Assembly: GCA_027451445.1 (NCBI GenBank)
Contig: DAIDJG010000441.1
Location: 1-32,997, forward strand
Reading direction: 5' to 3'
Length of the DNA stretch: 32,997 nt
Source of the DNA: Singulisphaera sp.
Lineage (GTDB): Bacteria; Planctomycetota; Planctomycetia; Isosphaerales; Isosphaeraceae
Part shown: in pieces, positions 11,692-14,943 of the stretch
Position numbering within the stretch: the stretch's first letter is position 1
Layout: each line of letters starts with the position of its first letter
Notes under the pieces: model-generated
The model's input: the letters and a program-made list of their open reading frames with translations, nothing else
What the model was told of the DNA's origin: nothing
Database searches by the model: none
Translations under genes and position numbers: made by a program

Positions 11692-13263
11692 TCAAAGCGT
11701 CGGCCCGATGTGCCAGGGGGCGAATTCTTCCTCCCCGACCCCGCTACGCTCGCTCTTCGTGTGCTCCCCGCTGGCGACGTCCAGAATCAAATCAAACATC
11801 CGTCGCCCGGCCGCCTCGACCGGCTCGCCTTCCAGGATTGTGCCCGTGTTGAGGTCCATGTCATCGACCATGCGTTCGTACATCGGTGTATTGGTGGCAA
11901 CCTTGATGCACGGCGTCGGCTTCAGACCGAGCACGCTCCCGCGACCGGTCGTAAAGACGAGCACGTTGGCGCCGCCCGCGACCAGGCCCGTCGTGCACGG
12001 TGGGTCAAAGCCGGGGGTGTCCATGAAAACCAGTCCCGGTGTGGTGACCTGCTCCGCGTAGCCGACGACGTCAACCAGTGGCGTCGAGCCAGCTTTCGCG
12101 AGTGCACCGAGGGACTTCTCGTAGATGGTGGTGAGTCCGCCGTTCTTGTTGCCGGGCGACGGGTTGTTGTTGATCTCGGCGTTGAAGACGCCCGCGTACC
12201 ACTCCCACCACTTGATCCGATCGACGAGCTTCTCGCCCACGGCGCGGCTCACCGCGCGTCGCGTCAGCATGTGCTCGGCGCCATAGATTTCGGTCGTCTC
12301 ACCGAGTACCGCCGTTCCCCCCTGGGCGATGATGAGATCCGCCGCGACGCCGAGGGCCGGGTTCGCGGTAACTCCCGAATTGCCGTCGGACCCGCCGCAC
12401 TCCATGGCGAGGACGAGCTTCGACGCCGGCTGCTCGGTGCGGACCCAGTCGTTGGCCAACGGGAGAACCTGATGGACCGCGGCCACCGCGGCCTCGACAG
12501 TTTTGGTGATCCCCCCCTGCTCCTGGATGTTCACCATTCGCGGCCGAAAGGGTTCCGAGGTTCGGTTCGATCGGCGTCCGGCACCCAGTTCGACGAGGTG
12601 GTTGGCCTCGACCAGGTGCTGGGCGTAGCTCACCTCGCAGCCGAGTCCTACGATGACGTACGCGGCGACATTCGGATGGTTCGCGAAGCCGGCGAGCACG
12701 CGCTCCAGGGTCGTGTGGTCGCGACCGCCGAACGGGAGCCCGCAGCCCCCTTTGTGGGTGATGGCGAACACGCCGTCGACGTTGGGGTAGTCCTTGCGCC
12801 AGGCGTCGTCCCGAAAGCGGTCGGCGATGTAGCGCGACGTGCTCGCGGAGCAGTTGACCGTGCTGATCACGGCAACATAGTTCCGGGTCCCGACCCGTCC
12901 GTCAGGCCGCAAATAGCCCTGGAACGTCCGGCGCTCGGTCATCGGTGGGACCGGCGGTCGCTCGGATGCGTATGCATAATCGCGCTCGAACAGGTCGGCC
13001 CGAACGTTATGCTCGTGAACCCATGTTCCCGCGGGAATGGCTTTGGAAGCGAAGCCGATGATCTGGCCGTACTTCCGCACGGGTTCGTCCGGCTTGATCG
13101 GTACGGTGGCGACCTTGTGCCCGAGTGCGATCGGCTGGAGGGTCTCGACCCGGCAATCGCCGAAGTCGAGCGTGATCCCCTTGGGGATGGGTCTGGCTGC
13201 TACCGCCACGTTGTCAGTGCTTCTCAGAAGGACCGCCCATTGCGTCTCGGCCGCCGTCGCCAT
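11692..13263 (-). CDS. UxaA/GarD family sugar-acid dehydratase (altronate/galactarate dehydratase-like)
   Basis: A 523-residue protein with an N-terminal SAF domain (about 10-85) and a long UxaA/GarD catalytic region (about 110-510). Family segments seen: GRVGTRNYVAVISTVNCSAS, THKGGCGLPFGGRDH, LAMECGGSDGNSGVTANPA and TTGRGSVLGLKPTPCIKVATN. Conserved Cys and His in these blocks are thought to hold the catalytic iron. The reaction would be removal of water from a sugar acid such as altronate or galactarate to give a 2-keto-3-deoxy acid. Its length equals that of E. coli GarD, but domain wording alone does not tell altronate from galactarate, so I give no symbol. ATG 13263 has GAGG 7 nt upstream. 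No other hexuronate genes are nearby; the upstream PQQ-type sugar dehydrogenase is on the same strand but separated by 396 bp and a repeat. Confidence 0.87.
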   Translation of the reverse strand: MATAAETQWAVLLRSTDNVAVAARPIPKGITLDFGDCRVETLQPIALGHKVATVPIKPDEPVRKYGQIIGFASKAIPAGTWVHEHNVRADLFERDYAYASERPPVPPMTERRTFQGYLRPDGRVGTRNYVAVISTVNCSASTSRYIADRFRDDAWRKDYPNVDGVFAITHKGGCGLPFGGRDHTTLERVLAGFANHPNVAAYVIVGLGCEVSYAQHLVEANHLVELGAGRRSNRTSEPFRPRMVNIQEQGGITKTVEAAVAAVHQVLPLANDWVRTEQPASKLVLAMECGGSDGNSGVTANPALGVAADLIIAQGGTAVLGETTEIYGAEHMLTRRAVSRAVGEKLVDRIKWWEWYAGVFNAEINNNPSPGNKNGGLTTIYEKSLGALAKAGSTPLVDVVGYAEQVTTPGLVFMDTPGFDPPCTTGLVAGGANVLVFTTGRGSVLGLKPTPCIKVATNTPMYERMVDDMDLNTGTILEGEPVEAAGRRMFDLILDVASGEHTKSERSGVGEEEFAPWHIGPTL

Positions 13264-13333
13264 GTTCGAACCTCGGGGATGTCGCAGGAAGGATCATTCT
13301 CTAACAGCGTCTATCATTTGCATTGTGCAGGGT

Positions 13334-13500
13334 CGGGAGGGCGAGGCTCCGTCCGAGCCAGCATTGTTCGGAGGACGAGTCTTCGAGTCCTCAGAACATC
13401 GCGTGTGAACGGCCTTCTCGTGTGGCGACTCGCGATGATCCACCGGCTCGAAGACTCGCCGGTGGATCAAGGCTGGCTCGGACGGAGCCTCGCCCTCCCG
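13334..13500. repeat. Structured 167-bp repeat-like element with perfect 27-bp terminal inverted repeat
   Basis: The two ends (13334-13360 and 13474-13500) are perfect reverse complements over 27 bp, with core GAGGCTCCGTCCGAGCC. Inside, three stems abut end to end. Hairpin 1 is 13366-13397 (GAGGAC/GTCCTC core, loop GAGTCTTCGA). A 6-bp stem joins 13398-13403 to 13431-13436 (ATCGCG/CGCGAT). Hairpin 2 is 13437-13468 with a perfect 11-bp stem and loop TCGAAGACTC. The two loops are exact reverse complements over 10 nt (12 nt with the closing bases). The layout is cloverleaf-like and would fold from either strand. It fills most of the 396-bp gap (13264-13659) between the dehydratase and sugar dehydrogenase genes; the rest of that gap shows nothing clear. 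Only one copy is in this window; translated, the ends give the GEAPSEPA string I recall from planctomycete repeats. Confidence 0.85.
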
Positions 13501-13659
13501 GAGGGCCTGCGCCACTCGATTGTTACACGCTCTAAGTTTATGCGGTGGGCCGAGTTTTGGGAAGCAAACGGATGACGAGCCCAATACACCGGCCGGGGCG
13601 TTCGCCGCTTCCATCTCAGGTGGCGTCCGTCCCCGGCCAGTTGATGTCGTCGATTTTCG

Positions 13660-14943
13660 TCAGTTCTTGCTTGCGGACGGGCGCACCAGTTCGTGAATCC
13701 GCCCGTCGAACGCGAGGATGTACATCTCGCCCGCCGCATCTTCGCCGAACGCGGCGATATTCAGCTTCCCACCCTTCTTCAAATCAATGATCTCACCGTT
13801 GGCCACTGCCTTGCCCCGCTCTTCGCGCAGGGCCCAGATGCGGCCGGTGTCGTAATCTCCGTACACGTAGAGGCCGTACAGTTCGGGGAGTGCCTTGCCT
13901 CGATACACGTAACCCCCGGTGATGCTCTTGCCGTCATCCTTTCGCTCGGCGTTCTGGCCATGCGGGTATTCGGCGATCGCCGGACTGATCGGACTCGCCG
14001 AGTCCGGCCGCTGGCGGCGCTGGGGCTGGAAGGGGTGGAAGCCTTCCTTGATGCTCCAGCCGTAGTTCCCGCCGTTCTTGATGATGTGCACAATCTCCCA
14101 CGTATTCTGGCCGACGTCGCCGGCCCAAAGGGTCCCGGTCTGTCGGTCGAACGTGAATTTCCAGACGTTTCTCAGGCCGATGCAGTAAACCTCGGGTGCC
14201 CAGTGCGAGAACTTCCCGCCACGGGCGCGTGGGTTGTCCTTGGGAATCCCATAAGGTTTGCCGTTCGAGGGATGGTCAACGTCGATCCGCAGAATCGACC
14301 CGAACCAGTCCTTGGGGTTCTGGCCGGTCGTCAGCGGATCGTCGGCTGCACCGCTGTCGCCGAGCGAAATGTAGAGGTAGCCGTCCGGACCGAACGCAAT
14401 GCAACCGCCGTTGTGGTTTTCGAACGGATCCTTGGCGCTGACCCAGATCCGTTCCTCGCTGGCAGGATCGGCTTGCCGCGGGTCCGACTTCGAGACCCGG
14501 AAGCGCGAGACGACCGAGCACCGATCATGGCCGCCCTTGTCGCGGTCATTTGCCGAGTAGTAGACGAAGAACTCGCCGTTTTCCTTGTACTTGGGGTGAA
14601 ACGCCAGGCCCAGCAGCCCCTCTTCGTTGCCCGTATTGATCTTGTCGGGAAGTTGGAGGAAGAGTTTGGCATCCTTCGTGGTCTTTTCGTTGGGGAACGA
14701 AAACACCTTGGTCTTGTGCTGCTCGGCGACGAAGAGCAGGTTGCTGCCGTCGTCGGGATAAGCCATCGCGATCGGGCGATCGAAACGAATGTTCGGAAAG
14801 GCAACCGCCGTGGCGAGCTTGGGTAAGCCCTCCGACGGAGCCGGCTTCGGAATCTCGTTAGAGTTCTGGGCGAGTGCGAGGTTTGAGGCGAGGACCAAAG
14901 CGATCGTCAACGCAAGGCGCGGAAGTTCGGGCAGGGAAAGCAT
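13660..14943 (-). CDS. Secreted PQQ-dependent sugar dehydrogenase (glucose/sorbosone dehydrogenase family)
   Basis: A 427-residue exported beta-propeller enzyme. A Sec signal peptide covers about residues 1-25, ending LALA before QNSNE. Family landmarks: FDRPIAMAYPDDGSNLLFVAE near the start, EEGLLGLAFHPKYKENGEF with the conserved catalytic-type His, HNGGCIAFGPDGYLYISLGD, IGLRNVWKFTFD and GDVGQNTWEIV. The expected reaction is oxidation of an aldose or similar sugar using PQQ in the periplasm or outside the cell; the real substrate cannot be told from sequence. Length fits the family (about 400-450). ATG 14943 is preceded by AAAGGA with 6 nt spacing. It lies 76 bp downstream of purQ on the same strand, but a functional link to purine synthesis is unlikely. 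Confidence 0.88.
   Translation of the reverse strand: MLSLPELPRLALTIALVLASNLALAQNSNEIPKPAPSEGLPKLATAVAFPNIRFDRPIAMAYPDDGSNLLFVAEQHKTKVFSFPNEKTTKDAKLFLQLPDKINTGNEEGLLGLAFHPKYKENGEFFVYYSANDRDKGGHDRCSVVSRFRVSKSDPRQADPASEERIWVSAKDPFENHNGGCIAFGPDGYLYISLGDSGAADDPLTTGQNPKDWFGSILRIDVDHPSNGKPYGIPKDNPRARGGKFSHWAPEVYCIGLRNVWKFTFDRQTGTLWAGDVGQNTWEIVHIIKNGGNYGWSIKEGFHPFQPQRRQRPDSASPISPAIAEYPHGQNAERKDDGKSITGGYVYRGKALPELYGLYVYGDYDTGRIWALREERGKAVANGEIIDLKKGGKLNIAAFGEDAAGEMYILAFDGRIHELVRPSASKN

Follow-up and report, generated by a model that had tools for sequence, protein, structure and literature searches.

The element and its genomic setting

In the window, meaning the whole stretch of 32,997 nt that was analyzed, a palindromic element separates two leftward genes, one of them D-galactarate/altronate dehydratase-like (11692–13263, minus strand) and the other glucose/sorbosone dehydrogenase-like (13660–14943, minus strand). 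The near end of the element is 39 bp away from where the former is listed to start. The repeated unit is wider than the cloverleaf core described in the initial annotation and runs from about 13302 to 13534; it is short and non-coding, is flanked by TA and has terminal inverted repeats (TIRs). The two TA dinucleotides (13302–13303 and 13533–13534) are presumed to be a target-site duplication, from the comparison of the flanks of copies and the count of TA ends among related elements. Inside them, comparison with other copies places a degenerate form of a repeat designated TIR-I, the left one at 13304–13331 (plus strand) and the right one at 13506–13532 (minus strand), which by eye are roughly two thirds identical to each other.

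The core itself, 167 nt in length, is closed by a terminal stem, recognized from the sequence, the fold and repeat searches. Its left arm (13334–13362, plus strand) contains a REP-like repeat, GGGAGGGCGAGGCTCCGTCCGAGCC, and its right arm (13472–13500, minus strand) holds the same repeat inverted. This stem had first been described as a perfect 27 bp; perfect it is, but its length is 29 bp. A gap of 3 nt separates it from each of the outer hairpins, hairpin a (13366–13397, plus strand) and hairpin b (13437–13468, plus strand), both with 11-bp stems, that of hairpin a including one G.A mismatch. The centre (13398–13436, plus strand) is an imperfect hairpin and, on comparison of the copies, the most variable part. 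The positions of these three inner stems and the absence of unpaired bases between them could be read directly from the sequence and agree with the initial annotation, as does the exact reverse complementarity of loop a (13377–13386, plus strand, GAGTCTTCGA) and loop b (13448–13457, plus strand, TCGAAGACTC), the latter being loop a on the other strand.

The core folds far better than expected by chance, with z = -11.8 under RNA parameters and z = -12.7 under DNA parameters, and no shuffle was equally good in either case. For the window copy, the cloverleaf is the minimum-energy fold with DNA parameters. With RNA parameters the cloverleaf is not the minimum, which is instead one long rod with the loops paired inside. 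Among the 85 copies described below, the rod is the minimum-energy fold in 68 (RNA) and 49 (DNA), and rod and cloverleaf are near in energy.

Copies in the host genome

The cloverleaf is not unique but a multi-copy repeat. Searches of the host assembly, a 10.9-Mb draft in 622 contigs, point to a copy number of around 100 or more. Among 147 candidates, 40 places were scored which, the window itself aside, are 88–93% identical, each of them matching on the other strand too. The comparison set used throughout consists of 85 distinct cores that could be parsed; as motif searches supplied many copies, the counts of REP-like repeats and loops are biased. The full core was seen in this genome only, and a strict core pattern gave no match among the named genomes, from which the records of this genome were possibly left out. 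Shortened forms were also encountered. For example, copy L056 is a deletion derivative in which nearly the entire core is gone, while L149 and L156 lack the segment bounded by two GGCTCG repeats, one at hairpin b and the other at the REP arm.

By a heuristic prediction of ORFs, 38 of 39 copies lie outside coding sequence; the same rough heuristic puts 9 copies between convergent genes, 1 between divergent genes and 20 between genes in tandem. An intergenic position and such an arrangement of neighbors would suit a transcription terminator or a hairpin that stabilizes the mRNA of adjoining genes. However, promoter and terminator scans of the region of the element found no site, the element is nearly symmetric, and changes confined to one copy are almost as common as decay predicts, which gives little sign of selection at each site. 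A role of this kind is quite unlikely. The view that the structure is more than a simple terminator is borne out.

Compensatory changes in the outer hairpins

Reading inward from either end of the core, each half has the REP-like repeat and then an 11-bp stem with the loop GAGTCTTCGA. Stems a and b are unlike in sequence and both are still paired, in 0.963 and 0.917 of cells, respectively, over all 85 copies. This pairing is above that of all 1000 shuffles, and slid partners reach only 0.15–0.51. Double compensated changes within families amount to 43 cells, where cells are copies and not events, and some ten of the compensated pairs are each confined to a single copy (L035, L141, L022, L055, L152, L036 and L192). 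Taken alone, family II has a hairpin a that pairs no better than the shuffles. In the register of the rod, stem pairing is only about 0.6, and it is therefore the local hairpins that the compensation maintains. Judged from these alignments, the outer hairpins are conserved structures, since their stems vary with compensation across copies. To this extent the earlier proposal of selection on a fold stands: the compensatory changes indicate that something keeps the outer hairpins paired. Counted inward from each end, G.T mispairs outnumber A.C mispairs by 104 to 18 cells, which reduces to only 19 versus 10 distinct types, so that the excess hints only weakly, if at all, at selection acting on single strands.

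Another potential reason for the compensation is that it is a mutational by-product, with template switching, as the palindrome is replicated, repeatedly copying one arm onto the other and no selection acting on the fold. Several double changes are present at once in L035 and L141, as copying in one step gives, and the deletion forms L056, L149 and L156 suggest that replication has gone wrong at the palindrome. Nevertheless, the main subfamily has a persistent G.T in hairpin a and a persistent C.A in hairpin b, which means that the arms are not always perfected. Template switching also leaves unexplained why the loops and the REP-like ends are constant while the stems between them diverge, and why an identical loop is present in a second repeat. 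We consider it somewhat unlikely as the source of the pattern.

Near-invariant loops

Loop a is unchanged in 79 of the 85 copies and loop b in 75. A loop change is present in 14 copies, and is matched in the other loop in one of these (L059). The initial annotation had proposed a kissing interaction between the loops, which would be expected to covary; with 13 of 14 changed copies lacking the matching change, they fail this test. The exact complementarity of the loops, together with the matching changes in both loops of L059, would be in keeping with a folded RNA in which the loops really kiss. It can be set against this that the loop changes in the 13 other copies are unmatched, that the loop strands lie within the continuous rod in the RNA minimum-energy fold of 68 of 85 copies, and that no Rfam model matched in the window, nor around the element with E values up to 1. 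Such an RNA is thus highly improbable. The loops are complementary because the two halves of the inverted repeat carry the same loop in opposite orientation.

It is unusual that the loops are near-unchanged while the stems around them drift. In the 50 copies of family I, a set that was fetched with no requirement for an exact loop and that includes copies selected by their TIRs, differences from the majority, counted as site-copies, were 6/1000 in the loops, 131/2200 in the stems, 51/3100 in the REP arms and 171/1404 in the centre. The skew is smaller for changes found in only one copy (4/1000 versus 27/2200, p = 0.03), from which it can be deduced that the conservation of the loops was mostly imposed during the spread of the families and not at each site.

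The loop can be found elsewhere. The 12-mer CGAGTCTTCGAG has 324 occurrences in the genome, compared with 2 for its reversed control, and 19 of 20 loci fetched as single occurrences of the 12-mer represent another, dissimilar repeat with ends of about AGAGTCTGTCCC. This second high-copy repeat (L118–L137; for example, L119 around position 301) has long palindromes and, at these loci, ends of about TAAGAGTCTGTCCC, and in it the 12-mer is again a hairpin apex, GGGGACTGGCTC-CGAGTCTTCGAG-GTGCCTGTCCCC. A tentative and rather doubtful idea is that the C[GAGTCTTCGA]G loop is a recognition module, read in hairpin form by a protein of this bacterium and common to mobile repeats that are otherwise unrelated, and that the TIR shells of this family routinely swap palindromic cores, giving one element two layers of mobility, the outer one of transposon ends and the inner one of a single-strand hairpin element.

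Two further loci involve the second repeat. At L347 (see also L337), a TIR-I type element has it inside its end, at what looks like a TA. At L066 and L073, on contig C119, it is broken within the loop sequence, between CGAGTCT and CCTGTATATG..., with an IS5-type transposase gene nearby; the break suggests an insertion into the hairpin apex.

The REP-like terminal repeat

The terminal stem consists of a 25-nt REP-like repeat in two inverted copies, a repeat that is spread over Planctomycetota and Verrucomicrobiota. The last 21 bases of this repeat, allowing up to 2 mismatches, occur 212 times in the genome, while the reversed control gave 0 occurrences. Among the matches listed, the exact repeat was found in records of Isosphaeraceae, Pirellulaceae, Phycisphaeraceae and Verrucomicrobiota, as well as under a few other labels, and in those records two copies often face each other in inverted orientation, with unrelated sequence of about 10 to 180 nt between them. 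From the distribution of these matches, the terminal stem is a REPIN-like pair, more widely distributed than the cloverleaf core. Two inverted REP repeats surround a spacer, and the conserved ends enclose a variable, paired interior with compensatory changes. The repeat is also arrayed in relatives; for example, relative G003 has it in a tandem array with a period of about 176 bp (L092), and in other relatives the periods are about 36–39 bp.

The core could itself be what moves, as a REPIN that a RAYT (TnpA-REP, HUH) enzyme mobilizes in the form of single-stranded DNA, its presence in MITEs being a mere matter of where it landed. Inverted REP-like doublets with variable interiors are present in many genomes, the core occurs in two different shells, and its rod and cloverleaf are close in energy, which can be compared with the pair of folds, hairpin and clover, put forward for REPINs (PMC3116915). 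There is also a cloverleaf copy some 0.4 kb downstream of one Y1-transposase gene. However, this gene is flanked by a different palindrome, and no RAYT linkage was found when up to 1.5 kb of fetched DNA was inspected on each side of the transposase genes, the REP-like repeat being at 3 of 37 Y1 loci, close to the background, versus 1 of 10 DDE loci. We therefore regard movement of the core by a RAYT as unlikely. The Y1-transposase gene in question (L111, 401–1800) lies between copies of a palindrome, CCTGGGGC..GCCCCAGG, that is possibly a REP of its own.

A GTAG or CGTC end tag marks two large groups of REPs (PMC3733652). Inspection of the repeat by eye found no such end tag: it starts GGGAGGGCGA and has CGTC internally only. 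None of the papers searched contained the letters of the motif. The core is accordingly called REPIN-like only, as the features of a MITE were found except for a known partner, whereas the RAYT association of REPINs was not.

A reusable shell with TA ends

Most copies lie within a longer element that has the TIR-I inverted ends TA[GC]AGCGGTTT[TA]C...CGCGTTGCGCAC. TA is present at both ends in 32 of 61 TIR-I elements. A second family of about 20 copies has TIR-II ends, read by eye as about TTAGGGC.CGGGCA...TAAAGTC. For cloverleaf copy L036, the joined flanks match an uninterrupted palindromic repeat elsewhere, across the junction, at 84%, a match which supports insertion at TA; this filled/empty comparison covers one cloverleaf copy, with a diverged target. 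A related TIR-I element was found inside another repeat (78%). Of 45 genomes in the family, 8 had TIR-I ends with up to 3 mismatches, the host genome being one of them. The TIR-I shell was also seen around different palindromes, several in relatives and, in this genome, at L046–L052.

An autonomous partner with the same ends, of the IS630 or IS5 type, is the usual support for a MITE, though not an obligatory one. In the draft genome of 622 contigs and the relatives examined, the search for an autonomous element that combines TIR-I ends with a transposase of its own found none. Three kinds of candidate were considered and rejected as mobilizers or autonomous elements. An IS630 beside a copy (C343) has different ends (about TTGCTTGTCAGGAAAATAATGCC) and merely abuts the copy, and the IS5/DUF4096 and DDE_Tnp_1 elements have no surrounding TIR-I pair. 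A 1.3-kb TIR-I element in relative G010 (L376, 1501–2829) appears to be a short palindromic-core MITE split by an inserted IS110-type transposase gene, as judged from the ORF and layout without a family search.

We consider it likely that the element is one copy of a non-autonomous, TA-targeted MITE with a REPIN-like palindromic core. It is short and non-coding, with a high copy number, TA ends and shared TIRs, degenerate in the window copy. The flanks of L036, the REP-like pair, the reuse of the shell, the compensated stems, the near-invariant loops and the location of copies outside ORFs are further evidence for this. The approximately 20 TIR-II copies stand against an account with a single shell, as the TIR-I shell does not explain all copies. 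In the proposed mechanism, the TIR-I shell would be cut and joined by a TA-specific transposase supplied in trans. The core is an inverted duplication, each half having the REP-like repeat and then the 11-bp hairpin with its loop, and when single-stranded it can fold either into a long rod, in which the loops pair together, or into a cloverleaf of local hairpins. The hairpins and the loop were kept during the spread of the families, probably through a protein that recognizes the hairpin with its loop.

The initial interpretation is thus partly supported. Maintenance of the fold is retained, as is the idea of a transposition substrate, in that copies, TIRs and TA ends assign the cloverleaf to a mobile element. 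The claim that its order exceeds that of a MITE is not supported, the cloverleaf being best understood as the core of a MITE, and neither is the kissing pair.

Comparison with known systems

REPINs and MITEs are usually held to be separate classes, with different enzymes moving each. Here, one family combines the layouts of both, with a core whose fold and loop persist despite drift in the stems, and with a TIR shell that serves again, in related genomes, to enclose other palindromes. The set of 85 natural variants offers material for testing what recognizes hairpins of this kind and whether REP-like repeats owe their spread in Planctomycetota to MITEs.

In layout, the element resembles the BOX elements of Streptococcus pneumoniae (PMC3049150), which are likewise modular and strongly structured, with fixed ends and variable inner modules. 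The likeness noted is one of layout, with no sequence relation seen, and unlike in BOX, the inner modules here are palindromes that are also found as repeats in their own right. Bacterial MITEs with TA ends and strong pairing, such as Correia/NEMIS, RUP and ERIC, have been reviewed (PMC2229807), and the element shares with them its short, non-coding nature, TIRs, TA ends and strong pairing. It differs from them in the exchangeable REP-like palindrome inside, with an invariant hairpin loop, and, whereas RUP has the partner IS630-Spn1, no partner IS was found for the element here.

REPINs are inverted REP doublets with compensating spacers, for which hairpin and clover folds have been proposed (Bertels and Rainey 2011, PMC3116915). 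Although the core described here is longer, has two extra hairpins with invariant loops, is seated in MITE ends and came without RAYT linkage, it shares with REPINs the two inverted conserved repeats, the less conserved spacer with compensatory changes, the extragenic location and the alternatives of hairpin and clover (PMC3116915).
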